Shown: piece by piece, positions 31,456 through 60,460 of the stretch
Layout of the letters: the number at the start of each line of letters is the position of its first letter
Position numbering within the stretch: the first letter of the stretch is position 1
NCBI GenBank assembly: GCA_017416915.1
Contig: JAFQAN010000016.1
Span: forward strand, 28,622 to 92,621
From: Alistipes sp.
GTDB lineage: Bacteria; Bacteroidota; Bacteroidia; Bacteroidales; Rikenellaceae
DNA: 64,000 nt
Reading direction: 5' to 3'
Position numbers and translations under genes: made by a program
The notes under the pieces: generated by a model
The model's input: the letters and a program-made list of their open reading frames with translations, nothing else
What the model was told of the DNA's origin: nothing
The model's database searches: none

Positions 31456-32469
31456 TTACTCCTCGTCCCTGATAGGTATGGCGATAAGACGCTCGCCAAG
31501 CTTAACGCGGCATACACCATTGCGTGGCTCAAAGCCCATATCGTAGAGCGGCGGAATGACCCACTCGTAGCCACGACGGTAGCCCCATAGGTGGTAGTGG
31601 TGGTCCAACTCGACATCAGACGACACGCTGTCTGCGGCGGGGCGCAGAGCGTACTCCAAATACTCTTTAAGCTCGAAGATGCCGAGGTAGTGCGACCTCA
31701 CGGAGTAGGCTATGCGGTAGTGTGCAGCATCGCCACGCTCCTCAAAGATGCGTAGGGCATGCTCCATAGCTTTGTCGCTCTTGGTAATCACATCCTTAGG
31801 CTCGAAAAGTGTCTTATCTTCGCGTATATAACGCTCCATCGTCTCGCGGTCGTGAGCGAGGGCGGCAAGAGCCGTAGATATTATGGCTATTGGGAAGTCG
31901 TCGATAAGCTTCGAGTTGTAGTGAGGAGTGCGGCGCGGATGGCGATACTCCTCGGTGCCAAGCTCCTCGGCGGGCTGATTGTTTAGCTCCAAGTCCCACG
32001 CGCCGTCGAAGTCGATTAGCTCCATTTCTCCGTCGGGACGTACTATGATGTTTTCGGGCTTTATGTCGCCGTGCGCACCGTCAGCCGCCAATGTGCGGCA
32101 AGCTAAACGGTCGAAAGCTTGGCTTAGTGCCTTATAGTCGGATGTGGGGTTGCCTATGTATGTGTCGAGCGGCTGACCCTCTACCCACGGCGTCAGGACG
32201 ATGTCGATATACTCGATGCGCCCAGCCATAGTATATACGCCCAACTCCTTGCGCATATATGCCGAGCCATAAATGTAGGCGGTATTACGCTTGGGGCGGA
32301 AGTAGCACTTTACCAGATAGCGACCCTCGCGACCCATCACACGGCATCGTGCTGTAACGGTATTGTTACCTACGGCGATGGTATCCTCATCCACCCATAT
32401 CTGGTCGAGTGTCCGCAGATATTTGACATTCGACAATAGGGTATTTCGTATTGCGATACAATCGACCAT
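31456..32469 (-). CDS. Protein-kinase-like protein with WG-type C-terminal tail
   Basis: Residues up to about 200 show a protein-kinase fold signature: a lysine in YLVKCYF, the catalytic loop HGDIKPENIIV and the metal-binding IDFDGA in place of DFG. The C-terminal 40 residues (YHLWGYRRGYEWVIPP) look like one WG-type beta repeat. I use the ATG at 32469 (337 residues). A frame extended to 32586 would run through the promoter at 32490-32497. The substrate is unknown; such Bacteroidetes proteins are sometimes grouped with Ser/Thr kinases and sometimes with lipopolysaccharide kinases. Confidence 0.68.
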   Translation of the reverse strand: MVDCIAIRNTLLSNVKYLRTLDQIWVDEDTIAVGNNTVTARCRVMGREGRYLVKCYFRPKRNTAYIYGSAYMRKELGVYTMAGRIEYIDIVLTPWVEGQPLDTYIGNPTSDYKALSQAFDRLACRTLAADGAHGDIKPENIIVRPDGEMELIDFDGAWDLELNNQPAEELGTEEYRHPRRTPHYNSKLIDDFPIAIISTALAALAHDRETMERYIREDKTLFEPKDVITKSDKAMEHALRIFEERGDAAHYRIAYSVRSHYLGIFELKEYLEYALRPAADSVSSDVELDHHYHLWGYRRGYEWVIPPLYDMGFEPRNGVCRVKLGERLIAIPIRDEE

Positions 32470-32489
32470 AGGAACAATGATTTGCAAAA

Positions 32490-32520
32490 CAAAGGTACGA
32501 ATATTTAGCCCGAATAGCAA
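32490..32520 (-). promoter_or_regulatory. Promoter of the kinase-like gene
   Basis: On the minus strand TTG (32520-32518) and TACCTTTG (32497-32490) are 20 bases apart. It sets the start of the gene at the ATG at 32469. Confidence 0.65.
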
Positions 32521-32561
32521 ATCTTTCCTCAATGATTTGGAGTTATGGGCAGATATAAACA

Positions 32562-32596
32562 AAAAAGCGTTGCGAGAATATCGCAACGCCTTTTTG
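32562..32596 (-). terminator. Strong hairpin terminator at the distal end of the capsule operon
   Basis: The perfect stem gcgttgcga/tcgcaacgc, flanked by A-run and T-run, can act in both directions. It closes the capsule operon after the gene at 32614. Confidence 0.85.
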
Positions 32597-32613
32597 CTAC
32601 AATAGCTAAATAT

Positions 32614-33012
32614 TTACATAATATCTTCGTTAGCCATAAAATAGAACTGCTTTGCAAATAGGTCGTAGCTGTTCAGTTTGGTAAATACCTCGGGAAACGA
32701 CCAACCATAGTACTCGCAACGTTTAACCCATATATCGTATTTATTGGCATATTTCTCTGACTTGTTTTCGGGATAATCTACCAAGCGCGCTACCGCCATA
32801 AAGTCGCTATATATCATATCTTGAAGTTCCTTGTCAAATGTTGGAGACTTTGTGGCAGATAGATATAGGAGCTTATCCATCTTTGACTCCTTATTGCCAT
32901 TAATCTTCTCCAATATTGCCTCTACATTGCTGCATAAGGTCCAAAATTTGACAATGAGAAGTATGCTTAAAACGATGCTTGCGATGTATAACAAAATAAT
33001 AATAAAATCCAT
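32614..33012 (-). CDS. Small membrane-anchored hypothetical protein
   Basis: The 132-residue protein has one N-terminal membrane segment (residues 4-24) and an acidic, mostly helical remainder. No family is recognised. It is the last gene before the strong terminator at 32562-32596 and lies 21 bases past the NTP_transf_5 gene, so it is probably co-transcribed with the capsule operon. The body includes several aromatic residues (YYGWSF, YDLFAKQFYF). Confidence 0.5.
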   Translation of the reverse strand: MDFIIILLYIASIVLSILLIVKFWTLCSNVEAILEKINGNKESKMDKLLYLSATKSPTFDKELQDMIYSDFMAVARLVDYPENKSEKYANKYDIWVKRCEYYGWSFPEVFTKLNSYDLFAKQFYFMANEDIM

Positions 33013-33033
33013 ATCGTAATAATTTTAGTTATT

Positions 33034-34140
33034 CTACCTTAGTGTCTTTGGCTTTAAGAGGTGGCTATATACCTGCACAATAAACGTGTGGAAAAGTCCT
33101 TCACGATGCACCAAGCGGTGCTTCCAGCGGTTTGCCCACCAACGGCGAAACTTGAATACAAGGCGTTTTAGGATGTTGCCCTTTGGCGCCTTCTCCGAGA
33201 ACTCGGGTGATATGATGTCGCCCAAGACGCGCTCTTCGAGAGCCGCGTTGCGTTCAAAGTCGGGGACATACTCCTTCGCCAACCCGAAATGGTCGATAGA
33301 TATGGCGTTGAGCGAGTCGAGGAACTTGTGCATATTCATCTCGCGGGCGTAGTTGCTGAGCCACACCCAATCAACCTCAGCGTGGTAGCGCTTGACAAAT
33401 AGCGCCCAGTCGATAACCTGGCGGAAGTTTAGCTCCGTAGAGGCGAAGTGCGATGCGGCGTGGCGCAACAAAAAGAGGGCATTGAGGTTGGGCGATGGAA
33501 GATATACCGCCGAGCTACCTACCTCGACAACCTCGCCCTTGTCCTCGTTGGCAAGGCGTTTTAGCTCGCGCTCGATATGCTTGCTCGACGTGTGGGCGTG
33601 GATATTGATGAAGTCGTAGTGGTTCTCGATGAGGATGCCGTTGATTACGAAGGTGGTGTGATGATGCACATCCTCGTCAATCTTAATGCCTTTCTCTTCG
33701 CGTAATAATCTGTCCGCCCGCTCCTGCTCGCCATATAGCCAGATGTCAATGTCGCCGCACTCGCGATGCTCAGGAGTAGGGTATAGGAGGCTTATGCCAT
33801 AGCCTTTGAGTAGCATCATACGAATATCGTGGCTCTTGTAAAATGCAGCGAGCTTGCTAATAAGAGCCTCTTGGCGACGATAGCGCTTGACGATATTGTC
33901 GATGCTGAGTGCCCATTGCAATTTCACCGTGCGTTCAGGTAGTTGCTCGGTGCAGAGCAGACCTTCATTGGCAAGTTGTTCGATACCCTCCCACGCGATA
34001 GCGATAACGCCCTGCTTAGCAGCAAGTTTGAAGATGTCGGTCCAGTCGATGCGCTCGACGGGTTGCCAACGCTCGGTACTCTTTGTCAGTGCAACAAAGA
34101 TGATGTTTATCAGTATTTTCGCCGTATCGTTACTTCTCAC
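33034..34140 (-). CDS. NTP_transf_5 family nucleotidyltransferase-like protein
   Basis: The 368-residue protein has the features of Pfam NTP_transf_5 (PF14907): LLKGYGISLLYPTPEHRECGDIDIWL, with the paired acidic residues in DIDI acting as the metal site, followed by a histidine-rich stretch. It starts with GTG and overlaps the aminotransferase stop by one base (TAGTG). Members of this family occur in lasso-peptide and other peptide-modifying loci (PadeN in the paeninodin cluster), and also next to glycan genes. Its position at the end of the capsule operon suggests that it modifies the product or a lipid; the substrate is unknown. Confidence 0.7.
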   Translation of the reverse strand: MRSNDTAKILINIIFVALTKSTERWQPVERIDWTDIFKLAAKQGVIAIAWEGIEQLANEGLLCTEQLPERTVKLQWALSIDNIVKRYRRQEALISKLAAFYKSHDIRMMLLKGYGISLLYPTPEHRECGDIDIWLYGEQERADRLLREEKGIKIDEDVHHHTTFVINGILIENHYDFINIHAHTSSKHIERELKRLANEDKGEVVEVGSSAVYLPSPNLNALFLLRHAASHFASTELNFRQVIDWALFVKRYHAEVDWVWLSNYAREMNMHKFLDSLNAISIDHFGLAKEYVPDFERNAALEERVLGDIISPEFSEKAPKGNILKRLVFKFRRWWANRWKHRLVHREGLFHTFIVQVYSHLLKPKTLR

Positions 34141-35387
34141 TATCGTACAATGTTAGCCTTGATCTGCTCGACAATATAACGTGCATCATCATCGCTTACA
34201 CACGGACCGCTGGGAAGACACATACCTTGTTCGAAGAGCCTCTCACTTACTCCATTGGTGTAGGCGGGTGCATTTGCAAAAACAGGCTGTTTATGCATAG
34301 GTTTCCACAGAGGACGTGCCTCAATGCCAGCCTTGTCGAGAGCAATGCGCAGTGCCTCAACATTGGCGTTAGGCTCGCAGTCGGTATGTAGTGATGACGC
34401 GGCGTGAACAACGCTTCCTGCACCACCAACAGCACCCTGCACGGCAGTATCGTATGCATGCTCCTGACCTATAACCTTCAAATTGGGGTCGATAACGATA
34501 GTGTTTAGCCAGTAGTTACTATCGTATCTCTCAGATGGGTTTTCGTGTAACGTAATACCCTCGACATCAGCTAAAAGCTCTCTATATACATCGCAAAGGT
34601 GCTTGTGGTGTGCGATGTGATCAGCGGCTACGGTCATCTGTCCACGACCGATACCTGCGCATATATTGGACATGCGGTAGTTGTAGCCTATGTGTTCGTG
34701 CTGATAGTATGGGTACGCCTCGCGAGCTTGTGTAGCGTAGAACATAATCTCGTTCTTAGCGGCGTTGTCTTCGCAGATGAGCGCGCCACCTCCCGAGGTG
34801 GTAATCATCTTGTTGCCGTTGAACGAGAGTACGCCGTACTTGCCAAATGTGCCACATACCTTGCCATCATATTTAGATCCGAAGCCCTCGGCAGCATCCT
34901 CAATGACAGGAATGTCGTATTTGCGGCTTATTGCCATAATCTCATCAATTTTTGCTGGCATACCGTAGAGATAGACAGGAACAATAGCCTTTGGCTTCTT
35001 GCCAGTTTTTTCGATGCGGTCGATGATTGCCTTTTCCAGGAGTACAGGGTCCATATTCCAAGTCTCCTCTTCCGAGTCGATGAATATGGGTGTTGCTCCG
35101 AGGTATGTGATAGGATTTGCCGAGGCGCAGAATGTGAAAGACTGACATAATACCTCATCGCCAGCTCCAACGCCACACGCAATAAGGGCGAGATGAACGG
35201 CGGCTGTACCAGCCGAGAGAGCAACAACTTTCTTATCTTCGCCGACGAACTTTTCGAGGTCTGCCTCAAAGCCGTTCACATTAGGACCAAGGGGTACTAC
35301 CCAGTTAGTGTCAAATGCCTCTTGTATAAACTTTTGTTCCTCGCCCGACATATGTGCCAAGCAGAGGTAGATTCTATTTTGTGCCAT
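34140..35387 (-). CDS. DegT/DnrJ-type sugar aminotransferase (WcfR/PglE-like)
   Basis: The 415-residue PLP enzyme has the expected patterns, SAGTAAVHLAL for phosphate binding, a PLP Asp in VIEDAAEGFG and the Schiff-base Lys in SFNGNKMITTSGGG. Family members aminate the 4-keto-6-deoxy sugar made from UDP-GlcNAc by PglF/WbpM-type dehydratases. Together with the dehydratase at 56620 and the initiating transferase at 42608 this suggests a 4-amino-4,6-dideoxy sugar such as AATGal or a bacillosamine precursor at the reducing end. It is coupled to the NTP_transf_5 gene by one base. The exact sugar is an inference. Confidence 0.83.
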   Translation of the reverse strand: MAQNRIYLCLAHMSGEEQKFIQEAFDTNWVVPLGPNVNGFEADLEKFVGEDKKVVALSAGTAAVHLALIACGVGAGDEVLCQSFTFCASANPITYLGATPIFIDSEEETWNMDPVLLEKAIIDRIEKTGKKPKAIVPVYLYGMPAKIDEIMAISRKYDIPVIEDAAEGFGSKYDGKVCGTFGKYGVLSFNGNKMITTSGGGALICEDNAAKNEIMFYATQAREAYPYYQHEHIGYNYRMSNICAGIGRGQMTVAADHIAHHKHLCDVYRELLADVEGITLHENPSERYDSNYWLNTIVIDPNLKVIGQEHAYDTAVQGAVGGAGSVVHAASSLHTDCEPNANVEALRIALDKAGIEARPLWKPMHKQPVFANAPAYTNGVSERLFEQGMCLPSGPCVSDDDARYIVEQIKANIVR

Positions 35388-35389
35388 AA

Positions 35390-36646
35390 TTAGTAAACTC
35401 CATTTTTAAGATATGATAGTATGTCGTTCATATTAAATCCTTCAAGATTGCGTCCAACCTTTCTGATGTCATTGTCAAATAACTTGATATACAAATCTAT
35501 TGTTTCAGTGATAACATCACAATTTATATCTAAATACTTTGCTAATGACTCTAATGGTACTAATCCAGTGGGTATATCCTCTTCGATATATCTTAATTGA
35601 GGAACCGAATTACTTTGATATGTAGGCGTGCGACCAATAGTATCTGATAAAGATTCTCCTTCAATTCGTACAACACCATATGTAATATCTAACCAGTGTT
35701 GTGCGGATAACACTGAATTATTGAGATATTCAGTAAAGGTTCGACGAATCTTTCTAAGGATTTCAATATCATCTTCGTGTTCTGCCTCTAATGCACGTAA
35801 CCCATTCGTGAGTTTTCGCCATATATCTTCACGTGGCGCACTCTTTAAGCCGAATACACTCATCCCGAGCTTATTGGCAATTTGAAGACGGACTTGATCA
35901 ATTTCCTCCAATACCTTGCCAACATCCTTTCGTTGAGCTATACCCTCAACATAGAATGAGAATTGTCTATTTTCATCTTCCGCTTTCCTAATGCCATCAA
36001 TATTTAGTAGATAGGTGGCACAATGAAAAACAGCTCCAATATTATTTAGTGATGTTAGTGCAGGTATATGTGTTACCGCTGCCTGTGGGAACAGAGTTTT
36101 AATAGACCTTACACTATCTTGTGTAAATGTGCCTTCCAAAGAACAGACCCAAGTTCGTTTACGACGCTTAATAACAGATGTCGTTGGACTTGGTCTTTTG
36201 CACGAATAGGGACATGTCGAAAAGCAAACTATTGGATAATGTTCTCCCAGAATCTTCCATAAATATGGTGAAGCTATTGTACGTGATGGCGACAGAATAA
36301 TAGGGGGGCGTTTAATTCCCAAACTATCAACCGTAGCCATATCTCTTGCAGCCGACTCTTGATATATTGAGGGTAAAGCTACAATGATTACATCTGCCTG
36401 ACTGACAAGTGTTGTTACGTCTGTTGTTACAATAGAGTCCCCAAGAGCAACAAATCTGCTTGGCTCGTGATTTGAGTTTTGAGGTCGTTCTAAAACAACT
36501 CCCCCTAATTTATTTATCGCTTCTACACTCTCGTTGCCATTTTTAGAGCCTCGGGCATATCCAATAACCTTATAACCTCTACTAATAAAGTCTGCAAAAT
36601 ATGCTAATCCACTTTGAGAGCTGATACCGTAAATGCCGATTGTCAT
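35390..36646 (-). CDS. Opine-dehydrogenase-like NAD(P) oxidoreductase
   Basis: The 418-residue protein has an N-terminal dinucleotide-binding region (MTIGIYGISSQSGLAYFADF) and a C-terminal helical domain with the octopine/nopaline dehydrogenase-type stretch DIPTGLVPLESLAKYL. It also has an internal SLEGTF and HIPALTSLNNIGAVFH, as in that family. Opine dehydrogenases reductively join an amino acid to an alpha-keto acid. In this operon it could make an N-carboxyalkyl amino acid, as decorates some bacterial polysaccharides, but that is an inference. The nucleotide-binding motif is imperfect (GIYGISSQSG instead of GxGxxG). It lies two bases past the aminotransferase. Confidence 0.62.
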   Translation of the reverse strand: MTIGIYGISSQSGLAYFADFISRGYKVIGYARGSKNGNESVEAINKLGGVVLERPQNSNHEPSRFVALGDSIVTTDVTTLVSQADVIIVALPSIYQESAARDMATVDSLGIKRPPIILSPSRTIASPYLWKILGEHYPIVCFSTCPYSCKRPSPTTSVIKRRKRTWVCSLEGTFTQDSVRSIKTLFPQAAVTHIPALTSLNNIGAVFHCATYLLNIDGIRKAEDENRQFSFYVEGIAQRKDVGKVLEEIDQVRLQIANKLGMSVFGLKSAPREDIWRKLTNGLRALEAEHEDDIEILRKIRRTFTEYLNNSVLSAQHWLDITYGVVRIEGESLSDTIGRTPTYQSNSVPQLRYIEEDIPTGLVPLESLAKYLDINCDVITETIDLYIKLFDNDIRKVGRNLEGFNMNDILSYLKNGVY

Positions 36647-36654
36647 TTTATATG

Positions 36655-37707
36655 TTATATATTTTTTGTTAGACCTAACTTGTGTCCAATTTTTTTGAAT
36701 TTCTGCCGTAATGTCATTGTGTCTGTAATAATGAACTCTATAATAGGACGAATGTGTCTAAAAGAGAACCAATATATATTCCATATTTTACGATTGCTGA
36801 ATATGAAATAAAATAGTTTAGATGCTCTATGTTTATGGCACTGTCCAAATACCACACTGCCATCTTTATTGATATCAGTTTGATAAACTTCAATACTAGT
36901 GATTTGTTTATGTTCTATGGATATGATGGGTATCAGAGATTGGCACATCCAAAACATTTTAGCATTCTTATTGGGCGTTTTATAACCAATTCTTGAAAAG
37001 CAAAAATTCCCTAATCCATAGAATATATATTTGTCTTTATATACTTCATATGGCTGAATGGCATGACTATGTGTTCCGATTATGATATCTGCGCCATCAT
37101 CAATTATCTGATGAGCTAATGATGGTTGGTAGAAATCTGGAAGACTTCCACCCTCTGTGCGACCTCCCCAATGTAGTAGAACAATAACGATATCATATTT
37201 TCGTTTATATTCTTGTATCTCTTTTTTGACTCTTTGATAATCAAAAATATTTACATATACTTCCGCGCCATTGGGAATGGTAGGATTTGTATCTTTATGT
37301 ACAAAATTCAATATACAAATAGAAGAATCATTATTCTCGATTATTAAAGGCTTTTGCGCATCTTCAATGTTTGTTGCTGCACCGATATGGCGAATATTAT
37401 TATTATTTAGAAACGATATGGTGTTTTCGAATCCCTCCTTCAATGTGTCATATGCGTGGTTATGAGCGAGTTCTACTATATTTACACCGATGTGTTTAAG
37501 GTAATTCAGAGTGCTTTGTTTTGTTTTGACCCTGGTATATTTAGATAAATTTTCACCGAGGCCTTCACATAGTGACTCTAGATTGCCAACTATATATTCG
37601 TTGTTTTGGAGAAATTCCCCAACCTTATCAAATGGTCTTAATCCAGACTCGTACAATGAATTATATATATCATTAAATGATATATCTCCTAATACAGCAA
37701 TCTTCAT
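36655..37707 (-). CDS. CapA-family (PGA_cap) protein
   Basis: The 350-residue protein matches the poly-gamma-glutamate capsule CapA family: GDISFND at the start, NLES, ELAHNHAYD, LLHWGGRTEGG and IIIGTHSHAIQPYEVY, the metallophosphoesterase-type motifs with metal-binding His and Asp. CapA proteins assist poly-glutamate capsule or polymer assembly in Bacillus, but distant relatives act elsewhere. It sits between the reductase and the opine-dehydrogenase-like gene in one operon. No CapB or CapC gene is present, so a role with a different amino-acid-bearing polymer is possible. No export signal is visible. Confidence 0.8.
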   Translation of the reverse strand: MKIAVLGDISFNDIYNSLYESGLRPFDKVGEFLQNNEYIVGNLESLCEGLGENLSKYTRVKTKQSTLNYLKHIGVNIVELAHNHAYDTLKEGFENTISFLNNNNIRHIGAATNIEDAQKPLIIENNDSSICILNFVHKDTNPTIPNGAEVYVNIFDYQRVKKEIQEYKRKYDIVIVLLHWGGRTEGGSLPDFYQPSLAHQIIDDGADIIIGTHSHAIQPYEVYKDKYIFYGLGNFCFSRIGYKTPNKNAKMFWMCQSLIPIISIEHKQITSIEVYQTDINKDGSVVFGQCHKHRASKLFYFIFSNRKIWNIYWFSFRHIRPIIEFIITDTMTLRQKFKKIGHKLGLTKNI

Positions 37708-37713
37708 CTTAAT

Positions 37714-38550
37714 TTATTGAAAATGTTTACCGTAGCCTTTATTCTGATTCAAAGATGAAATATACTTCATTTGTTCGTCTGTCAGAGAAAAATCAAATAT
37801 CTCTAAATTTTCTTGAATTCTTTTTGGATTACTTGATCTAACCACGGTGATAATGTCTTGTTGTACAAGCCAACGAAGTATAATTTGACCAACACTCTTG
37901 TTATGCTGTTGTGCAAATTGAATTAGAGTTTCGTTATTCATAATTTCAGGTAAGATATTACCTCTTCCAAATGGAGAATATGCCTCAACCACTATTCCTC
38001 TATCGTTGCAGTATTGTATTATATCTTCCATTGTATTGTATGGGTGTATCTCTATTTGGTTTATCATAGGGATGCCCCCAACCTCCTTATACAATGTGTC
38101 AAGTTGCTCTTGGTTAAAGTTTGATACGCCAATTGCTTTTACTTTCCCTTTGTCGTATAGAGATATAAGTTCTTGATAAGCTTTCGTATTGTATTTAAAA
38201 GGTGAGTGAAGTAAGAAAATGTCAATAGAATCCACTCCTAATAATTTGCATGAATTTTTATATGCGCGACTGACGGACTGTTTATCAAGATGCAAGTAGC
38301 GACGATGTCCTAAATATTGCGTAGCACATATCTTGGATGTAATTAATATTTTGTTCCTATCCAAAATGTTATTCTGAATTGCAAATCCAATATCCCCTTC
38401 GTTCCCATACATATGTGCTGTATCGTATAACTCGTATCCAGCTGAACCTGCAAATTTTAGGGCATCAATAAGATGTCGCCCTTTAAGTGGGTATGTTCCC
38501 ATCCCAATCATAGGAATTTTTAGCTGATTAGGTAGCACTTTGTACTCCAT
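37714..38550 (-). CDS. Aldo/keto reductase
   Basis: The 278-residue protein is an aldo/keto reductase by its motifs: GMGTYPLKG at the N-terminus, DTAHMYGNE with the catalytic Asp and Tyr, ITSKI with the Lys, FLLHSP with the His, and GVSNFNQEQL and LRWLVQQDI in the NADPH-binding half. It reduces a carbonyl using NADPH. Its place between the CapA-like gene and an ATP-grasp gene, all in the same direction, suggests a step in making the special substituent. The substrate is not predictable from the sequence. Confidence 0.85.
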   Translation of the reverse strand: MEYKVLPNQLKIPMIGMGTYPLKGRHLIDALKFAGSAGYELYDTAHMYGNEGDIGFAIQNNILDRNKILITSKICATQYLGHRRYLHLDKQSVSRAYKNSCKLLGVDSIDIFLLHSPFKYNTKAYQELISLYDKGKVKAIGVSNFNQEQLDTLYKEVGGIPMINQIEIHPYNTMEDIIQYCNDRGIVVEAYSPFGRGNILPEIMNNETLIQFAQQHNKSVGQIILRWLVQQDIITVVRSSNPKRIQENLEIFDFSLTDEQMKYISSLNQNKGYGKHFQ

Positions 38551-38570
38551 ACTGTACGTCCTCCTTAATA

Positions 38571-39539
38571 TTATATATAAGACTTCAATATCTCATATTT
38601 AGGTATTCCATCGCAAGTCTGCGTACACTGACCTGGGCAGAAATTACCTTCAATTAATTCAAACCCTTTTGGAGTTATTGCAACATCCCAACCTACATAT
38701 CTGGCGTTTGGCATAACTTGACTTACCCTTCTAATGTAAGATTCTAGTTCTTGAATCATTGGAACTTTGTATCCAACAAAATTTATGCCTGTTTCAGGAT
38801 GAGATGCAAGCCAATACCCTTTTGGATTGTAGCCCTCTTTATCAATCTTTCCCGTCGTCATATCAACGTGGCACATAACACCTCCACTATGGCAATTGCT
38901 AACAATAATTTTCTTAGTGCCAATCATTAGCAAAACATTTAAGAGATGAAATTCTCCATTTTGATCTATACAAGTCTCTACTCTAAGCGTCTGTAAAGAA
39001 GCTGGGTTAAGTTTTGCAATATCTGGGTGGTTAATCAATTTCTCCTCAATCATATATTGTTCTTTGCCAGCAGCCGCTTTATACTTGTCTATAAATTTGT
39101 CTGCCATTGTAGAATTAATTACAGATATTCCTATTCCCCAAGTTGAGTTAGTTGGCTTAATTACAACTTCGTCGTGAGATTCAATGAATTTACGAATATC
39201 CTCAATAGAAGAGTTTGCAGTGTATATCCAATCTCTTGTAACAAAATCCTTGAATCGCTCACTAAAAAGGTTCTTATGTGCCAATGTCTTGCGGGCATCG
39301 TCATCATAAAATGCTTTATAAAATAGTCTTTTATTACCTGATGTTACATACTCGGCTCTTTCTTTGCTTGATTTTTCAAAGAATTTTAACGAAATGTAAT
39401 CATCTGATAAAGCACCGTACTTTACAATGCAATATATCATATCAATATATCGAAATAGTTTGTATTTATTGTACGGTTTAGGAATTAAACTCAATGATAG
39501 CCAAGAAGCTTTTAACTCTCGAAAAATTCTCTTAATCAT
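38571..39539 (-). CDS. ATP-grasp protein related to sugar-transfer ligases (PF14397-like)
   Basis: The 322-residue protein has the pattern of ATP-grasp ligases found beside glycosyltransferases: VVIKPTNSTWGIGISV (ATP-binding loop near residue 125), MIEEKLI, TLRVETCID, then GWDVAITPKGFELIEGN with the metal-binding Glu and Asn at the C-terminus. Members of this group join an amino acid or carboxylate to an amine or sugar. In this operon it is one of two ATP-grasp genes and could load the amino-acid-type group onto the polymer. The donor and acceptor are unknown. Confidence 0.7.
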   Translation of the reverse strand: MIKRIFRELKASWLSLSLIPKPYNKYKLFRYIDMIYCIVKYGALSDDYISLKFFEKSSKERAEYVTSGNKRLFYKAFYDDDARKTLAHKNLFSERFKDFVTRDWIYTANSSIEDIRKFIESHDEVVIKPTNSTWGIGISVINSTMADKFIDKYKAAAGKEQYMIEEKLINHPDIAKLNPASLQTLRVETCIDQNGEFHLLNVLLMIGTKKIIVSNCHSGGVMCHVDMTTGKIDKEGYNPKGYWLASHPETGINFVGYKVPMIQELESYIRRVSQVMPNARYVGWDVAITPKGFELIEGNFCPGQCTQTCDGIPKYEILKSYI

Positions 39540-39551
39540 AGTATCTACGTG

Positions 39552-41381
39552 TTATTTAATTACTAATCTATCTTTCTCAGATATAATGTTCTTGTTGATG
39601 TGGTCATCGACAAGGTTAATCATTCCATATTTAGTCGGTGATGTTATAAAATCACCCTTATATTTAGTATTAATGATGCCTGGCGCGCTAATAATTTTGC
39701 GCTCAATAGCTGTCGAAAGAGTGTTTGCGTCTGCTACGTATTTGGTAAGCTGCTCAATAGTTGTATGCTCCGTGTATATAGGATTCAATTTGGCAATTTC
39801 CGCGAGAAGATACGAACACTCTTCGATGAGATATTTTCGACGCTCAACGATAATGGGGTTGTTCATCTCTTTCATAATCTCAGCTTGATATTTCCTAAAT
39901 ATTCTGACGGCACGTCTAACTAATTTAGAGCTGTCAATAATATCCTCAGCAGTGGCTGCGTGGTTCGCCTCGCAGTAACTAACAACATGTAGAATATTGG
40001 GGTTCATCATCATCTGCATAAGAGTAGAGCGACCGAGTTGCCATTTCGCCTTATTCATATCTGGACTCAATGACTCGATTCCTGTGCGAGCTTCAATAAC
40101 GATATTCGCAGGATTAGTTCTGCCGTTTGACATTTTACGAGCCATATCAAGACCTGCTGACATCTTTGCTAAGTCTGCGTAATCGCCCGTTTCCTTAGGT
40201 TTGTTGAACTGCATTTGGAGTACCATGTTTTGTACCCCGCACATCGTCATAACTGCGCTGATTAGTGCGTAACTGGTTGCGATAAGCGTATCGTGTGCCA
40301 AACGAGAACTCCATTGGTTGGGATCATTCATTTCAACAGGTATCCCTAATGATGCCAATGTGCGAACTGCTTCAAAGTGTTCGTGTATAGATTCTCTAAC
40401 ATTGTGAGGACCTCTGCCATCTAACTCATTAAACCAAAATAGTGGGATGGCCTGATGCGCTCCTCTTAATAGCCCGATTTCAAGACATTCGTGTATGAAT
40501 GGTACAATGCCAACCACATGGCAATATGGTTTCATCGCTGGAAAATTTCCACATCTTGAAGCCATATATAATCTCCTAAGATCATCTTTTGTCTTGTATG
40601 GAACGCCACCGTCATTCTTCCTGTTCTCAAACATTTCTGGGTGTCCATAAAAACGCTGAGATAGGTCAGATGATCCTAATGAAATCTCATCAATAACTCT
40701 GGCTTCAGAGAGCATTCTAATACCCTCTACGGTTGGCTCAATATCTTGTGCTGGGACGCCATAGTGGCTTCTTAATACAGGAATATCCGACTCTTTGATG
40801 CGCGACATAAAATTATTAGTCGCATCAATAGAGGGTATTCTAAGAGGAGGTTCATTCTTGTACTCATCATTGGCTATAACTTCGTCAGCTAATTGATTAA
40901 GAATTTCTATACCCTTGGGTGCTATTTCTTCGCGGAGAGATTCAATAATGTTTCTCTTCTCTTTAACATCAAAAAAGTCGAGTGTCTCTACAACTCTATC
41001 CATTACCTCGGGATAAGGCTCGCACAATTCAATAGGAAATGGTAGTAGATGTAAGTTCTCCTTAATTATCTTGATTGTTTCTGGAAGTCCTGCAAACGAA
41101 ATCTTGATGTCGTCATCAGTTTTAAGTAGTCCAGTTTCAACAAACTTATGTAGCACATTTTGTAACTGCTCAAAACCAATCTTAGGCGTTAAGCGATAGC
41201 TCAAACCAATGTACTTTGGTTGATATTTCTTTATCGCATCGAATAGATCGTCGTAAGTATTAGAGGGTTTTACTATTAATGAATTTACACCTACTAATTT
41301 TGCTATTTTGGCAGCATTATGCATGCCTTCCGTGTGTGGATCGTTGGCAAGTGAAGATGCCACAAAGAAATTATTGTTCAT
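39552..41381 (-). CDS. Cobalamin-binding protein with methylaspartate-mutase-E-like barrel
   Basis: From the ATG at 41381 the protein has 609 residues. It begins with a B12-binding domain whose DxHxxG motif is D14, H16, G19 in NDPHTEG, followed by the expected YIGLSYRLTP strand and a Gly-rich strand ISFAGLP. Residues from about 190 on resemble the TIM barrel of glutamate mutase subunit E, with LRSHYGVPAQDI and SLGSSDLSQRFYG. This would be a fused small-plus-large subunit. True glutamate mutase makes 3-methylaspartate from glutamate with adenosylcobalamin; whether this one does is an inference. It overlaps the ATP-grasp gene by 11 bases. Confidence 0.62.
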   Translation of the reverse strand: MNNNFFVASSLANDPHTEGMHNAAKIAKLVGVNSLIVKPSNTYDDLFDAIKKYQPKYIGLSYRLTPKIGFEQLQNVLHKFVETGLLKTDDDIKISFAGLPETIKIIKENLHLLPFPIELCEPYPEVMDRVVETLDFFDVKEKRNIIESLREEIAPKGIEILNQLADEVIANDEYKNEPPLRIPSIDATNNFMSRIKESDIPVLRSHYGVPAQDIEPTVEGIRMLSEARVIDEISLGSSDLSQRFYGHPEMFENRKNDGGVPYKTKDDLRRLYMASRCGNFPAMKPYCHVVGIVPFIHECLEIGLLRGAHQAIPLFWFNELDGRGPHNVRESIHEHFEAVRTLASLGIPVEMNDPNQWSSRLAHDTLIATSYALISAVMTMCGVQNMVLQMQFNKPKETGDYADLAKMSAGLDMARKMSNGRTNPANIVIEARTGIESLSPDMNKAKWQLGRSTLMQMMMNPNILHVVSYCEANHAATAEDIIDSSKLVRRAVRIFRKYQAEIMKEMNNPIIVERRKYLIEECSYLLAEIAKLNPIYTEHTTIEQLTKYVADANTLSTAIERKIISAPGIINTKYKGDFITSPTKYGMINLVDDHINKNIISEKDRLVIK

Positions 41382-42600
41382 ACATTGATCGTAAAAATAT
41401 GTCATTGCCAGTTGCATCCAAAACTTTAATATTGCTTATCGCATATTGAATCTTGTCATGGAGTTCTTGCGGAGTATTAGCTTTTATTAATATGGATCCA
41501 ACTCGATTGCTACTACCTTGAGGATGTAGTACCTCAGTTCCTGATGATACCGTTTGCGTGAAGCTGTCGATAATGTTTTCTGATATAAGTTTGTCTGTTC
41601 CGACTATTTTGTCGAACACTCCACCTATTGTGTATAAGTGGCATCTAGACATACATTTAGCCTCGCATTGAATATCCATGGATACTTTTTTATTAACCAT
41701 TGCATCAATATTCGCATTTAATATGTTGAAGCCAGTATATTCATGGATAGTCTTATATTTTGCACCACCTCCAATTCTTGCTGAGAACTCAATAACAGCT
41801 ATGTCGTCGCCATTCACAATTAACTGTATCAATAATGGAGAATATGTGAGATTATATGCCTGAGCAATCTTGTTTGCAATAGACTCTATTTGCTCATATA
41901 CACCGATATTTAGAGAGGGCGGAATTATACTTTGGTATATAACCATCGTAGCATCGTTTACCTTGTATTTATTTAGTTGGCTCATCATTAGTATAGTAGC
42001 TTTTCCATCATTAATAAAAGCATCAACACTAATTTCAATACCCTCTTTAAATTCTTCGACTATCGCTGTATGCGTGCGGCTAAATTGTTGTGCTTGTTGA
42101 ATATATTTAATACATTCTTCAATGGTCTCTACTCGCCTCACGCCCTTTGAACCATTACAATCCGCAGGCTTAACAATCAAGGGGAATTTTAATGATGCTA
42201 TATCGTCATAGTTGTCATCCTTAATTACGCAATGCTTGGCTGTCGGGATATTATTTTTTACCATAATATCCTTCATTCGCTCTTTATTTGTTAGGTTGAG
42301 GGCTTGATTGTATGAAAGGTAACACGGTAAATTGAGCTTCTCTGCAACGTATGCCATAATGGGCAGTGGCTGATCTCCACACGTGATTATAATCATATCA
42401 GCATTTTCCTCCCTTGTCGATTCTAAAACAGCATCCTGATCCATCGTGCTGATTTGAAGATGTCTGTCTGCATAAGGCTTTGCAACAGGATTCTCGGCGT
42501 AGTCAATTAATATAATCTCTACATTCTCATACTTCTCTCGCAAAGATTTTATAAGAGCGATTTGGTCATTGCCCCCAGCGAGTACCATTATCTTTTTCAT
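41371..42600 (-). CDS. ATP-grasp carboxylate-amine ligase
   Basis: The 409-residue protein has a pre-ATP-grasp Rossmann-like start (MVLAGGNDQIALIKSL), the ATP-binding loop FPLIVKPADCNGSKGV near residue 150 and the metal-binding VIEFSARIGGG near residue 300. It resembles the carbamoyl-phosphate-synthase-like and D-Ala-D-Ala-like ATP-grasp proteins that make peptide-type bonds. It overlaps the cobalamin gene by 11 bases, so the two are probably made together. With the other ATP-grasp protein at 38571 it is a candidate for attaching an amino-acid-like group. The substrate is unknown. Confidence 0.72.
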   Translation of the reverse strand: MKKIMVLAGGNDQIALIKSLREKYENVEIILIDYAENPVAKPYADRHLQISTMDQDAVLESTREENADMIIITCGDQPLPIMAYVAEKLNLPCYLSYNQALNLTNKERMKDIMVKNNIPTAKHCVIKDDNYDDIASLKFPLIVKPADCNGSKGVRRVETIEECIKYIQQAQQFSRTHTAIVEEFKEGIEISVDAFINDGKATILMMSQLNKYKVNDATMVIYQSIIPPSLNIGVYEQIESIANKIAQAYNLTYSPLLIQLIVNGDDIAVIEFSARIGGGAKYKTIHEYTGFNILNANIDAMVNKKVSMDIQCEAKCMSRCHLYTIGGVFDKIVGTDKLISENIIDSFTQTVSSGTEVLHPQGSSNRVGSILIKANTPQELHDKIQYAISNIKVLDATGNDIFLRSMYEQ

Positions 42601-42607
42601 AGGCTAA

Positions 42608-43219
42608 TTAATTGTGTCCGTTAAATCCAACTGAGCCAACTTTATCAGATGACGAATTGATATCCTTGCGTGAAATAACGTTTTTGACAGTTAAGAATAT
42701 AATCTTAATATCTAAGATAATTGAAATGTTATCGACGTACCATACATCCAACTTAAACTTTTCTGTCCATGTAATAGTGTTTCTGCCATTAACCTGCGCC
42801 CAACCTGTAACACCAGGACGAACTTCGTGACGACGAGCTTGCTCTGGTGAATATAACTCTAAGTATCTAATCATTAGTGGACGAGGACCGATTAACGACA
42901 TATCTCCCTTCAATACATTGATTAGCTGTGGAAGCTCATCAATCGAATAATTTCTAATAAATTTGCCGACCTTGGTTAATCGTTTTTCATTAGGAAGCAA
43001 CTTCCCCTCGGCATCGCGCTCGTCGGTCATCGACTTGAATTTGATGACCTTAAATATCTTGGCATCTTTACCAGGACGCTCCTGGGTGAAGAACGCTCCT
43101 GCTCCCTTATTGGCAATCATTAGCCAAATGGTGATTATTATCAATATCGGAGACAGCACAAGCAACGCCGTGAGCGATATCCAAAAATCAAAAAAACGCT
43201 TGAAAAAGTGCTTATACAT
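42608..43219 (-). CDS. Initiating phosphoglycosyl transferase (PglC/WcfS-type)
   Basis: The 203-residue protein has one N-terminal hydrophobic stretch (residues 10-35) that enters the membrane as a re-entrant helix. The monotopic PGT core follows with FFTQERPGKDAKIFKVIKFK in two parts, SIDELPQLINVLKGDMSLIGPRP, and the late GRNTITW. These enzymes move a sugar phosphate from a UDP sugar to undecaprenyl phosphate and begin repeat-unit assembly. The donor could be the 4-amino sugar produced with the aminotransferase at 34140, as for WcfS in B. fragilis PSA; that is an inference. Confidence 0.85.
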   Translation of the reverse strand: MYKHFFKRFFDFWISLTALLVLSPILIIITIWLMIANKGAGAFFTQERPGKDAKIFKVIKFKSMTDERDAEGKLLPNEKRLTKVGKFIRNYSIDELPQLINVLKGDMSLIGPRPLMIRYLELYSPEQARRHEVRPGVTGWAQVNGRNTITWTEKFKLDVWYVDNISIILDIKIIFLTVKNVISRKDINSSSDKVGSVGFNGHN

Positions 43220-44450: not shown

Positions 44451-45635
44451 TTAGAACTTTCGCCAGACCATCTTGTTTACGACGCCAGTGTACGACTGAA
44501 TCAACTTCACAACCTTCGTCGATACATTCTCGTCCGTATAGTTGGGTACAGGGATGCCATTGTCCCCCTCCTTGACCATCTCAACTGCCGTATCTACCGC
44601 CTGCAACAGCGACTTCTCGTCAATGCCCGCCAGAACGAAACATCCCTTATCCAATGCCTCGGGGCGCTCCGTAGAGGTGCGGATGCACACCGCTGGGAAC
44701 GAGTGTCCTACACTTGTGAAGAATGAACTCTCCTCAGGTAAAGTACCACTGTCGCTGACAACTGCATAGGCGTTCATCTGTAAGCAGTTATAGTCGTGAA
44801 AACCGAGTGGCTCGTGCTGGATAACGCGCTTGTCCAACTCAAAACCACTCGCCGTTAAACGGTTACGGCTGCGGGGGTGGCAAGAGTAGAGTATTGGCAT
44901 ACCATATTTCTCCGCCATCTTGTTAATTGCCGTAAACAGCGATGTGAAGTTCTTCTCGGTGTCGATATTCTCCTCGCGGTGTGCCGAGAGCAGGATGTAG
45001 CGACCCTTTTCCAAGCCCAAGCGCGCGTGGATGTCTGATGCCTCTATGTCGGCGAGGTTGTTGTGTAGCACCTCAGCCATAGGCGAGCCAGTAACGTATG
45101 TGCGCTCCTTAGCCACACCCGAAGCATTGAGGTAGCGGCGTGCGTGTTCCGAGTAGCAGAGGTTCACGTCCGAGATAATATCTACAATGCGGCGGTTTGT
45201 CTCCTCGGGGAGGCACTCGTCGAAGCAGCGATTGCCTGCCTCCATATGGAAGATAGGGATGTGAAGACGCTTAGCGCCTATAACCGAGAGGCACGAGTTT
45301 GTGTCGCCGAGTACCAATACTGCGTCGGGCTTTACCGCCACCATAAGTTTATACGAGGCGTTGATGATGTTGCCCATTGTTGCGCCGAGGTCGTCGCCAA
45401 CGGCATCAAGATATACATCGGGGTTGTCGAGCTTCAAATCGCGGAAGAATACGCCATTGAGGTTGTAATCGTAGTTCTGTCCTGTGTGCGCCAGCAGGCA
45501 GTCGAAGTACTTACGACACTTATTAATAACCGCTGCGAGGCGGATAATCTCGGGGCGTGTACCCACGATGATAAGCAGTTTAAGACGACCATCGTCCTTA
45601 AACGATACATCTGAAAAATCCTGTTTCAGTTCCAT
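44451..45635 (-). CDS. fnlC: UDP-N-acetylglucosamine 2-epimerase-type enzyme (FnlC/CapG)
   Basis: The 394-residue protein belongs to the non-hydrolysing UDP-GlcNAc 2-epimerase family: VGTRPEIIRLAAVI, HTGQNYD, VLGDTNSCL, HMEAGNRCF and LLSAHREENID, and the late VSDSGTLPEESSF. In the company of FnlA and FnlB it is the C-2 epimerase that completes UDP-L-FucNAc, acting on the FnlB product, instead of the ManNAc-making WecB. It lies 29 bases past the acyltransferase gene. The role is inferred from the neighbouring pair. Confidence 0.85.
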   Translation of the reverse strand: MELKQDFSDVSFKDDGRLKLLIIVGTRPEIIRLAAVINKCRKYFDCLLAHTGQNYDYNLNGVFFRDLKLDNPDVYLDAVGDDLGATMGNIINASYKLMVAVKPDAVLVLGDTNSCLSVIGAKRLHIPIFHMEAGNRCFDECLPEETNRRIVDIISDVNLCYSEHARRYLNASGVAKERTYVTGSPMAEVLHNNLADIEASDIHARLGLEKGRYILLSAHREENIDTEKNFTSLFTAINKMAEKYGMPILYSCHPRSRNRLTASGFELDKRVIQHEPLGFHDYNCLQMNAYAVVSDSGTLPEESSFFTSVGHSFPAVCIRTSTERPEALDKGCFVLAGIDEKSLLQAVDTAVEMVKEGDNGIPVPNYTDENVSTKVVKLIQSYTGVVNKMVWRKF

Positions 45636-45664
45636 ATCTATATCTAATTTTTATTGTTTCAAAT

Positions 45665-46684
45665 CTATGCCTTTCCAAGCATTACTCGCGATAGGTTGCG
45701 CGATTTTGATATAACTTTTACTATTGCCAAGCTCGCCGTAAACACCACGATACTCAATAGTAGTTGTAGTATCGGCTGCGAGATGTTGATCTCATACTTT
45801 TGTGCCACCTCCACAAATAGATCTTGTGTAAGGTATATGCCGAGCGTCAGCTGCCCGATTTGTATCCCCGAACTGATAAGTGCCGACGAGCCAAAGCGTC
45901 TAACAACACCCTCAGCTACTAAGTACAGAGGGATGATTGTTACTGTTCCCGCTACGAGCATATGTGCGTAATACTTTATATATGCGTCGGTAGGCAAATA
46001 CTTGAAAAAGTAAAATACGCCACCTGCTCTATACGTTACGTAGCATCCTACAACTGTTACGAGGCAGACTCCGCAAATCGCTACCTTATGCTTTGCTATC
46101 CACTCCGATACTCGATACTGGCTAAACAGCATACCTCCGATAAAGAAGGGTAGCATAGCCTGGAACGAGGTTAGGTGTGGTAGTGGCAAGCTGCGCGGTA
46201 TAAGCATAACTGCGATATAGGCTATCAGCAAGCCGTAGTTGCCGCCAATCTTCAATGCTGCGTATGATAAGAATATACAATACAGCAGCACCCATATAAA
46301 CCAATAACCGTAGGCTATCTCGATAAGCCAATCGTGGACTACGCCGCCAAGGCTCATTGCCCCTTGATGGTATATTATGCCGTTGATGATGAACTTTATT
46401 GTGGCAAAAATGACCATCGGTATTACGATGCCTCGTATGCGCTTCAATGCGAGTTCTCGTGGTGAGGTTCGACTAAACGACTTATACGATGCGCAGCCAC
46501 TCAGAAAGATAAAGAGCGGCATCTCGAACATCGTAACGACCTTGAATATCGGAATATTCAGGTAGGCACTGCCGTAGCCCGTATGCTGAAAGCAGTGTCC
46601 CGATATTACGCAAAATATCGCAACGCATTTCAGCAGGTCCCAGACGCCATTTCGTCGTGTAGCTATCGCCTCGGTCGCAATCAT
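45665..46684 (-). CDS. Membrane acyltransferase (Acyltransferase_3 family)
   Basis: The 339-residue protein has about ten membrane segments and the family-3 acyltransferase start WDLLKCVAIFCVISGH, with the histidine that is usually catalytic. This family O-acetylates sugars in membrane-bound intermediates or polymers. It lies between fnlB and fnlC, overlapping the fnlB end by four bases (ATGA), so it was made part of the FucNAc cassette. It may acetylate the FucNAc residue or a neighbouring sugar; the target is not certain. Confidence 0.78.
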   Translation of the reverse strand: MIATEAIATRRNGVWDLLKCVAIFCVISGHCFQHTGYGSAYLNIPIFKVVTMFEMPLFIFLSGCASYKSFSRTSPRELALKRIRGIVIPMVIFATIKFIINGIIYHQGAMSLGGVVHDWLIEIAYGYWFIWVLLYCIFLSYAALKIGGNYGLLIAYIAVMLIPRSLPLPHLTSFQAMLPFFIGGMLFSQYRVSEWIAKHKVAICGVCLVTVVGCYVTYRAGGVFYFFKYLPTDAYIKYYAHMLVAGTVTIIPLYLVAEGVVRRFGSSALISSGIQIGQLTLGIYLTQDLFVEVAQKYEINISQPILQLLLSIVVFTASLAIVKVISKSRNLSRVMLGKA

Positions 46685-47889: not shown

Positions 47890-47893
47890 GTTG

Positions 47894-56576: not shown

Positions 56577-56619
56577 AATAAGTGAAGTTCTATAAGTTAG
56601 TAAACAGCGTTATTCTCTG

Positions 56620-58554: not shown

Positions 58555-58590
58555 AGTGAGTCTGTTTTGAGTATTTGTGCGGGTTGCTCC

Positions 58591-59139
58591 CTATTCAATC
58601 TTTTCTAAAAAACATTCAGGAATGTACGATGTCGCCACGGCAACTATGCCCTCAATGGCTACTACGAGTCGATGGTTACCCTTTATGCGCTTGATGTATC
58701 CCTCAGCTCCTTTGAAGATGCCGTCAATAACCCTTACGCGGCAACCTGTTGTCCACTCTGATGATACATCTCCTAAGTACTCCATCCCTAAGTCATCAAC
58801 CGATGTGATGCTGATGAAACGCTGCATCTGCTCATCGGGTATTATCGCAGGATGCTTCTCACCGCGGTTGGTGTAGAGCATCGCCTGATTGTTGAGCGTC
58901 GGTTGTAGCTCGGTGGCTTGCTGCGCAGTGCAGCGTACAAACATCAGCGATGCTATGGCTGGCTTACGACGTCTAATCTTTCTGCCGTTTACGATTTGCT
59001 CCACGCTCTTCATCGGAATATAACTCTCGATACTCTGAGTTTTGAGCAACGCCTCTATTTTGAGTGTTCTGTTGTAGAAGACCTTTACGGCGTACCAATG
59101 TTTTGGACTCTCGGATAGTGATACTTCGCTGATGTGCAT
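58591..59139 (-). CDS. UpxY-family transcription antiterminator
   Basis: The 182-residue protein is a NusG-like factor of the UpxY family that lets RNA polymerase read through capsule operons in Bacteroidales. It opens with KHWYAVKVFYNRTLKIEALL, has FVRCTAQQATELQ in the first domain and a KOW-type end, GCRVRVIDGIFKGAEGYIKR. It is the first gene of the capsule operon, directly behind the structured leader. No UpxZ partner gene follows; B. fragilis operons usually carry one. Its target is probably its own operon leader. Confidence 0.88.
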   Translation of the reverse strand: MHISEVSLSESPKHWYAVKVFYNRTLKIEALLKTQSIESYIPMKSVEQIVNGRKIRRRKPAIASLMFVRCTAQQATELQPTLNNQAMLYTNRGEKHPAIIPDEQMQRFISITSVDDLGMEYLGDVSSEWTTGCRVRVIDGIFKGAEGYIKRIKGNHRLVVAIEGIVAVATSYIPECFLEKIE

Positions 59140-60443: not shown

Positions 60444-60460
60444 TTGAAAAATAGTGAGTG

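Follow-up and report, generated by a model that had tools for sequence, protein, structure and literature searches.

The question raised by this capsule locus of an Alistipes genome is which compound is made by a cassette of six genes, one of which codes for a cobalamin mutase-like protein. As judged from sequence, the explanation that we consider best, and moderately probable as a whole, is that this protein (MUT) and an opine dehydrogenase (ODH) would together make a rearranged opine-type amino acid, used elsewhere as a solute and here as a decoration of capsule sugars.

The cassette and its capsule locus

In the window, by which we mean the whole stretch of 64,000 nucleotides analysed, open reading frames for all six cassette genes were found on the minus strand, at the positions given by an earlier note on this DNA, which had described them as lying on one strand with gaps of a few bases. 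Indeed, the intergenic spacing is 6 to 20 bases, with the exception of MUT and GRASP, where the longest MUT frame overlaps by 47 bases; comparison with its relatives suggests that the true MUT start is probably Met13, at about 41381. The cassette and the neighbouring genes of the locus are the following:

34140-35387, minus strand: AT, DegT-type sugar aminotransferase, LegC-like (below the cut-off of that model) and perosamine-synthase-like
35390-36646, minus strand: ODH, 418 aa, matching Octopine_DH at 4.7e-25
36655-37707, minus strand: CAPA, CapA-like protein, matching PGA_cap at 1.5e-56
37714-38550, minus strand: AKR, aldo/keto reductase, DkgA-like, matching Aldo_ket_red at 2.5e-44
38571-39539, minus strand: ST, sugar-transfer-associated ATP-grasp protein (PF14397), matching ATPgrasp_ST at 1.1e-42
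39552-41417, minus strand: MUT, cobalamin mutase-like protein in a single chain, assigned via its family alignment
41371-42600, minus strand: GRASP, ATP-grasp ligase, matching ATP-grasp_4 at 6.3e-16
42608-43219, minus strand: PGT, initiating sugar-phosphate transferase (Bac_transf)
44451-48934, minus strand: UDP-N-acetyl-L-fucosamine-type genes, for a WecB-type 2-epimerase, an NF047837-like reductase and an FnlA-like protein, the last two scoring below the model cut-offs
45665-46684, minus strand: acyltransferase, inside the preceding group
55332-59139, minus strand: head of the capsule operon, with a UDP-glucose 6-dehydrogenase-like protein, a PseB-like dehydratase (Polysacc_synt_2) and the UpxY antiterminator

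A flippase is also encoded in the locus. The capsule setting proposed by the earlier note is thus borne out by UpxY, the flippase, the initiating transferase and the sugar-nucleotide genes, and the home of the cassette is an UpxY-type capsule locus of the sugar-polymer type. The genes are also found together elsewhere, a check proposed by that note: in another member of the Rikenellaceae (L016) the cassette has identical order, with 67-80% identity to the window.

A single-chain cobalamin mutase-like protein

Used as a single query, the window MUT gave nothing better than chance in Pfam, NCBIfam, PHROGs and the PDB, and a plasmid search returned no match; therefore confirmation of its assignment as a B12 and glutamate-mutase-like protein had to come from its family, represented by an alignment of 79 rows (homologues, including the window row). 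The B12-binding model PF02310 is matched by 64 of the 79 rows, the window row not being among them. PF06368 (Met_asp_mut_E), the sole barrel model matched in Pfam by the family, is found in 29/79 rows at E-values up to 0.01, again not in the window sequence, and its cut-off of 26.6 bits is passed by two homologues, L117 (36.4) and L109 (26.7). In NCBIfam the MutE model matches 6 rows and the MutS model 33/79 (best E-value 1.7e-12); a model dedicated to the family was found in neither Pfam nor NCBIfam.

Residues 26-31 of MUT, DPHTEG, form the DxHxxG motif. Its base-off His28, on which the earlier assignment depended, is invariant together with Gly31 (79/79), while Asp26, present in the window, occurs in 34/79 rows and is Cys in 45. 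Glu483, also found in 79/79 rows, aligns to a Glu of glutamate mutase which presumably binds the adenosyl ribose. As read from family alignment and profiles, MUT is one chain with an N-terminal B12 domain and a probable glutamate-mutase-E-like barrel, and on this point the earlier note is supported. The genome also carries a cobalamin adenosyltransferase (PF01923), so that a supply of AdoCbl is plausible.

The opine dehydrogenase as constant partner of MUT

The Octopine_DH domain of ODH scores 88.8 bits against a cut-off of 30; ODH finds the solved relative 1bg6 at 2.9e-21, and the ODH profile matches a solved opine dehydrogenase at 1.6e-106; His208 and Asp357, which we take from CENDH to be catalytic, are invariant in 50 rows. 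No second PF02317 gene was found in the assembly. ODH accompanies MUT in 70 of 83 loci, in 58 of them as a same-strand neighbour and in 36 of these 58 with overlapping genes, in hosts that include Bacillota, Chloroflexota and Asgard archaea, among others. Many operons consist of ODH and MUT alone. The widely conserved unit is thus the pair of MUT and ODH, not the six-gene cassette, and no other gene accompanies MUT as constantly as ODH. The proposed joint role of the pair is favoured by L013, where AT (64% identity) and GRASP (42%) are kept, with MUT (28%) and ODH (22%) both belonging to another subfamily; against it stands L018, which has MUT, GRASP, ST and AKR but no ODH within 10 kb on either side. 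Other genes recurrent near MUT code for amide-forming partners (Asn synthase and ATP-grasp proteins), D-Ala-D-Ala-ligase-like ATP-grasps and an alanine-racemase-like protein.

The c-di-AMP riboswitch is typical of osmotic-stress and cell-wall genes. It was found (RF00379) directly upstream in 15 of 84 MUT loci, and the stand-alone operons under its control lie far outside capsules; both these operons and the constancy of ODH had escaped the earlier note. No RF00379 element was found in the window, in six further loci, including three of haloalkaliphile Bacillaceae, or in the Halanaerobiales loci L078 and L092, and for cobalamin riboswitches neither the window nor any of the 54 relative loci scanned gave a match that reached the Rfam threshold.

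Ligases and other accompanying enzymes

MUT is accompanied by an ATP-grasp ligase in 16 polysaccharide loci. GRASP recurs beside MUT in such loci; among solved structures its relatives are the L-amino-acid ligase 3vot and 4dim, which bears the name phosphoribosylglycinamide synthetase. ST scores 146.7 bits with PF14397 (cut-off 31.4) and was found by blast in 10/16 of these loci, and AT in 11/16. A place of AKR and CAPA among the core genes was weighed but dismissed, since each is present in 6/16 polysaccharide loci, for AKR all of them in Bacteroidota, and both fall outside the widely conserved set. The nearest NCBIfam model of CAPA is the lasso-peptide epimerase MslH, far under the cut-off (60.6 vs 700 bits), and its solved relatives, the 8gq9 group, which we take to be MslH, bear the PDB name 'poly-gamma-glutamate synthesis protein'. 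CAPA may thus be a metal-dependent epimerase, and the role of poly-glutamate helper given to it by the earlier note is doubtful.

A proposed pathway

The family profiles suggest that MUT would act as an AdoCbl-dependent carbon-skeleton mutase, in a glutamate-mutase-like mode, but one in which the two subunits are fused and the substrate pocket differs. ODH and MUT would form a two-enzyme route, whose chemistry, substrates and order of steps we infer; starting from a keto acid and a common amino acid, it would yield an N-(carboxyalkyl)-type amino acid that is rearranged and bears several carboxylates. Where the operon stands alone, the product is probably a compatible solute, switched by the c-di-AMP riboswitch in some Bacillota; in Bacteroidales it would have been recruited to decorate capsule sugars by means of ATP-grasp ligases. 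In the window locus, GRASP and/or ST would use ATP to activate a carboxylate and couple it in amide linkage, the most likely acceptor being an amino sugar made by AT, and AKR and CAPA would tune oxidation state or stereochemistry. The amino-acid-type building block joined by ATP-grasp ligases, as envisaged by the earlier note, fits this setting; the conversion of glutamate to 3-methylaspartate, suggested there as its chemistry, is not supported.

Relationship to glutamate mutase and alternative functions

If MUT were in effect a glutamate mutase, 3-methylaspartate would be attached to sugar by the ATP-grasp proteins and ODH would have a side role. We regard this as unlikely, even though the domains are glutamate-mutase-like and MutL, a partner protein of glutamate mutase, is encoded near MUT in four loci (L043, L046, L053 and L072, with L043 and L072 verified by Pfam); MutL is absent among the scanned window genes. 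In favour of the glutamate-mutase-like mode of the proposed pathway, the MUT barrel aligns colinearly with glutamate mutase E in hhalign over 365 columns with a score of 34.4, against 20.7 for the best of 30 column shuffles, 16.1 on reversal, 15.7 for ODH and 24.0 for methylmalonyl-CoA-mutase-like rows. However, the hhalign probability is 9-22%, compared with 90.6% between glutamate mutase and the methylmalonyl-CoA-mutase-like rows, which makes MUT a remote relative of glutamate mutase; a custom-built glutamate mutase HMM captures 8/79 rows, the window row remaining outside. The arginine claw R66/R100/R149, presumably glutamate-binding in glutamate mutase, is not seen at the aligned positions of this low-confidence alignment: R66 corresponds to His and R149 to Tyr (each 79/79) and R100 is unaligned, while other arginines, at 206, 216, 335, 372 and 444, are each invariant (79/79, weak alignment). 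With no counterpart of these glutamate-binding arginines in the weak alignment, the proposed formation of methylaspartate is unsupported. Moreover, a true glutamate mutase E occurs alongside MUT in 6 of the 28 MUT-bearing genomes searched, and the constant partner of MUT is ODH.

When 148 Bacteroidota genomes were searched for glutamate mutase E, seven partial matches turned up, all of them weak; L096 lies barely above the cut-off, at 26.9 bits with its neighbours in the frame. By eye, five of the seven loci (L096 and L098-L101) read as methylmalonyl-CoA mutase and were set aside.

Alternatively, ODH and MUT might serve in the breakdown of an amino acid or opine by fermenting anaerobes, the capsule copies being secondary recruits. 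Many hosts are Bacillota of presumably anaerobic life, and MutL lies beside some MUT copies; yet the upstream c-di-AMP riboswitch, the recurrent amide-forming partners and the presence in polysaccharide loci indicate biosynthesis rather than catabolism, and we hold this function to be improbable.

It is very unlikely that MUT methylates an amino acid or a sugar as a methylcobalamin-dependent methyltransferase. Among solved structures, the best relatives of its B12 domain are indeed methyltransferase-type corrinoid proteins, and among the NCBIfam corrinoid models MtgC matches 39/79 rows (best 2.3e-9), more than MutS, pyl_corrinoid 31 and MetH 7. However, the B12 fold begins near the N-terminus with no helical cap domain before it, by eye, Met_asp_mut_E is the only Pfam barrel model matched, the best MutS E-value beats the best MtgC one, and MutL is associated with the family.

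Hardly to be expected is a stand-alone product that serves as cell-wall or peptide building block and not as free solute. Cell-wall remodelling genes are also under c-di-AMP riboswitches (PMC9337991), and the D-Ala-D-Ala-ligase-like and alanine-racemase-like neighbours would fit; against this, ODH and MUT are the sole members of many operons, and Asgard archaea, which to our knowledge lack murein, have the pair as well. Finally, a poly-glutamate-like peptide capsule built by CAPA and the ATP-grasp proteins is suggested by the PGA_cap domain, the PDB name of the solved relatives and the two ligases, but is barely credible, CAPA having no N-terminal signal or anchor evident by eye and occurring in only 6/16 polysaccharide loci, and the window locus being one for a sugar polymer.

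Significance and comparison with known systems

To return to the proposed rearranged opine, a widespread mutase-like family tied to ODH, and partly to the c-di-AMP riboswitch, would suggest a stress solute (or wall component) that has so far escaped recognition, and its presence in a capsule locus a capsule substituent of a new kind; both proposals are directly testable in culturable thermophiles. Tentatively, these products may represent a new class of rearranged opines formed via a two-enzyme radical pathway, serving Bacillota as a c-di-AMP-controlled compatible solute, perhaps halophiles and Asgard archaea as a solute too, and recruited, perhaps repeatedly, to decorate surface sugars through an amide bond. 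The number of known B12 mutases acting on carbon skeletons is small, and we know of no opine dehydrogenase described together with a mutase. To judge by the titles and abstract openings of the publications found, none connects an opine dehydrogenase to a cobalamin mutase, and none describes a sugar-transfer-associated ATP-grasp protein in company with the two; gene lists for the ydaO riboswitch may already name these genes.

MUT shares with glutamate mutase GlmS/GlmE and MutL the base-off-His B12 domain, a probable MutE-like barrel, the Glu at the aligned adenosyl site and, in four loci, MutL. It differs in being a single fused chain with the B12 domain first, instead of separate S and E subunits, in its claw arginines, which are not aligned, in its opine dehydrogenase partner, in its setting and in the remoteness of the similarity. 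2-Methyleneglutarate mutase, which we take to be a single-chain AdoCbl mutase of about 600 residues, is similar in this respect; its B12 domain is presumably C-terminal and its context nicotinate fermentation. Within the CENDH/octopine dehydrogenase family (PF02317, PDB 1bg6 and 3c7a) the ODH profile matches over the full length, with the His/Asp pair invariant, but the window branch is longer. The pyrrolysine route PylB-PylC-PylD offers an analogy, as it likewise unites a mutase, a PylC-like ATP-grasp and a dehydrogenase in one pathway, and an ATP-grasp of the cassette matches the PylC-like model TIGR03909 at 1.9e-13, below its cut-off; as differences, PylB presumably belongs to the radical-SAM enzymes and PylD is not known to be an opine dehydrogenase. 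The gene ablA, for the N-epsilon-acetyl-beta-lysine precursor, differs in coding for a lysine 2,3-aminomutase, which we take to be a radical SAM enzyme, and in having no opine dehydrogenase. It is likewise a mutase gene for an osmolyte under a c-di-AMP/Na+ riboswitch (PMC9337991). ST, in turn, is a clear member of the sugar-transfer-associated ATP-grasp family, but one that occurs here together with an opine dehydrogenase and a B12 mutase-like protein.

Organization of the capsule locus

The six genes that the earlier note had grouped as a cassette are all confirmed by ORF calls and domain search, on the minus strand and with the ends and domains it assigned. Together with an adjacent aminotransferase gene and the genes lying 3' of the cassette, they are arranged as follows:

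31456..34140: kinase- and WG-repeat-like protein (both matches weak, below cut-off), a small ORF and an NTP_transf_5 protein, 3' of the cassette
34140..35387, minus strand: AT, DegT aminotransferase
35390..36646, minus strand: ODH, opine dehydrogenase
36655..37707, minus strand: CAPA, PGA_cap protein
37714..38550, minus strand: AKR, aldo/keto reductase
38571..39539, minus strand: ST, sugar-transfer-associated ATP-grasp protein (PF14397)
39552..41417, minus strand: MUT, fused cobalamin mutase-like protein
41371..42600, minus strand: GRASP, ATP-grasp ligase

By domain search, the surrounding locus is of capsule type. An UpxY antiterminator, a UDP-glucose dehydrogenase-like protein and a PseB-like dehydratase form its head; a WecB-type 2-epimerase, FnlA-like and reductase-like proteins and an acyltransferase are also encoded, as are a flippase, a Bac_transf initiator and the DegT aminotransferase. 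NTP_transf_5-like genes are likewise found downstream in two homologous loci, L016 and L021. The window comes from contig C32, in an assembly totalling 1.97 Mb (completeness 92.8%, contamination 2.0%); it also encodes a BspA-type leucine-rich-repeat protein with BACON domains (27132-29411) and, on visual inspection, a sialidase-like repeat protein that is probably a lipoprotein (60458-62044), followed by a small short-repeat protein (62056-62508).

The mutase-like family and its predicted active site

As a single sequence, the window MUT has no match better than chance in Pfam, NCBIfam, PHROG or PDB. Homologues occur in 5 of 395 genomes of the phylum and in 3 of 61 relatives, the window's own included in both counts; a genome_contigs search yielded 490 confirmed stretches, and 80 loci were retained from these. 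Among the hosts are Bacillota, Chloroflexota, Bacteroidota, Ignavibacteriota and Hydrogenedentota and, on the archaeal side, Lokiarchaeota, Heimdallarchaeota and Bathyarchaeota. The N-terminus of a profile built from a 79-row family alignment retrieves B12 proteins from PDB, the best at 1.7e-8 and glutamate mutase S at 0.0022. When rows were scanned singly against Pfam, 64/79 matched PF02310 and 29/79 the glutamate mutase E-chain model PF06368, with no match to either from the window row; NCBIfam models recognized were MutS (33/79, best 1.7e-12), MutE (6/79), the methyltransferase corrinoid protein MtgC (39/79, best 2.3e-9), a related corrinoid model (31/79) and MetH (7/79).

A PF06368 search of 28 MUT-bearing genomes picks up both MUTs, two of them above the 26.6-bit cut-off (L117, 36.4; L109, 26.7), and true glutamate mutase E, present in six genomes. 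A purpose-built glutamate mutase HMM includes eight of the 79 rows, the window row not among them. Compared by hhalign with glutamate mutase E (six rows), the family reaches only low probability (full alignment 14.8%, barrel 9-22%); the barrel match is colinear over 365 columns and scores 34.4, against 20.7 for the best of 30 column shuffles, 16.1 for the reversed profile, 15.7 for ODH and 24.0 for methylmalonyl-CoA-mutase-like rows. Since glutamate mutase and the latter rows match each other at 90.6%, MUT is the more remote relative.

The B12 motif described earlier is borne out, His28 and Gly31 being invariant (79/79 each). Glu483 (79/79) pairs, in a weak alignment, with Glu327 of the reference glutamate mutase row, equivalent to Glu330 of Clostridium cochlearium, an adenosyl ligand. 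Of the glutamate-binding arginines, Arg66 aligns to a His and Arg149 to a Tyr, both invariant, and Arg100 has no aligned position, in an alignment not strong enough to locate all residues; other arginines (206, 216, 335, 372, 444) are conserved in 79/79. Thus MUT probably acts in a glutamate-mutase-like manner on a substrate other than glutamate.

Association with opine dehydrogenase and other genes

By blast to the window ODH, an ODH was recognized in 70 of 83 MUT loci (the window, L014, L015 and L044 left out): in 58 it is an immediate same-strand neighbour, in 11 it shares the strand without being adjacent, and in one it lies on the opposite strand. Within adjacent pairs ODH comes first in 45/58 and the genes overlap in 36/58. 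In 12 of the 13 loci lacking ODH, one flank or both extends for less than 2.4 kb; the true exception is L018, where MUT shares a capsule locus with GRASP, AKR and a pair of ST-like genes, and where ODH is absent within 10 kb either side. The cassette ODH is the only Octopine_DH gene found in its genome assembly; among PDB entries, N-(1-D-carboxylethyl)-L-norvaline dehydrogenase is matched both by the ODH profile (1.6e-106) and by the window ODH alone (2.9e-21).

In 84 loci, same-strand genes up to six positions away from MUT were clustered by sequence; the counts follow these clusters, with Pfam run on single members. Asn synthase (11/84), alanine-racemase-like (7/84) and one broad ATP-grasp cluster (25/84) were found; the recurrent amide-forming enzymes (Asn synthase, ATP-grasp) fit a carboxylic amino acid as product. 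MutL occurs in four loci (L043, L046, L053, L072; PF13941 confirmed in L043 and L072), between ODH and MUT in L043 and directly 5' of MUT in the bathyarchaeotal L046 and L053. In three Lokiarchaeota loci (L050, L055, L056) the pair adjoins an alanine-racemase-like gene, with a D-Ala-D-Ala-ligase-like ATP-grasp also in L056; Asgard archaea are not known to have murein.

Free-standing operons and the c-di-AMP riboswitch

Of 54 relative loci searched with Rfam, 15 carry the c-di-AMP riboswitch RF00379 above threshold. When a model derived from seven of those was run over the window and 84 loci (1.37 Mb in all), it returned exactly these 15, and none in the window itself. Each riboswitch is on the same strand as MUT, ending 13-257 bases 5' of ODH or, in L045, 190 bases 5' of MUT; 12 fall in one clade of the tree, those outside being L045, L074 and L084. 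Bare two-gene ODH-MUT operons are found in the Bacillaceae Amphibacillus, Halolactibacillus and Natronobacillus (L030, L032, L038), which are haloalkaliphiles; no c-di-AMP riboswitch was found there.

In free-standing operons, ODH and MUT would together generate a rearranged opine-type amino acid serving as solute. Because c-di-AMP riboswitches also serve cell-wall genes (PMC9337991), a cell-wall building block was weighed as an alternative stand-alone product, and the overall reading and its more novel form were graded slightly lower; the alternative itself seems very improbable.

Occurrence in polysaccharide loci

Sixteen rows, the window included, were labelled polysaccharide-associated by our own call from neighbouring genes, and partners were scored by blast to window proteins. 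An ATP-grasp gene is near MUT in 16/16 (of a different cluster in L026 and L040, one member checked), ODH in 14, AT in 11, ST in 10, AKR and CAPA in six each; the window's arrangement of genes recurs in L016, at 67-80% identity. These loci come from Bacteroidota, Hydrogenedentota and Bacillota, a spread that suggests repeated recruitment; on the tree two changes of label suffice, and well-supported branches force only one, with 48 unlabelled rows left out. L013, a very long branch, retains AT and GRASP, but its MUT and ODH both belong to a different subfamily, which suggests that the pair was swapped as a unit.

Solved relatives of GRASP are 4dim, named phosphoribosylglycinamide synthetase (8.5e-24), and the L-amino-acid ligase 3vot (4.2e-14), and those of AT are sugar aminotransferases, with perosamine synthase. 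CAPA resembles the 8gq9 group, which carries the PDB name poly-gamma-glutamate synthesis protein and is presumably the epimerase MslH; its NCBIfam match is also MslH, far below cut-off, and CAPA is possibly an epimerase. In the window, GRASP and/or ST would couple the product, as a decoration, to a sugar amine that AT supplies. We lean slightly towards this overall reading, a rearranged opine-type amino acid used as solute in free-standing operons and as sugar decoration here. More tentative, with the balance somewhat against it, is the proposal of a new pathway in which ODH and a fused mutase produce a new class of rearranged opines, a c-di-AMP-controlled solute in Bacillota recruited for amide decoration of polysaccharide. 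A literature search, with published c-di-AMP riboswitch gene lists outside its scope, found no paper on the MUT-ODH pair. As an enzyme, MUT belongs to a known type, of which it is a new form; the mutase-ODH pathway, if true, would be new.
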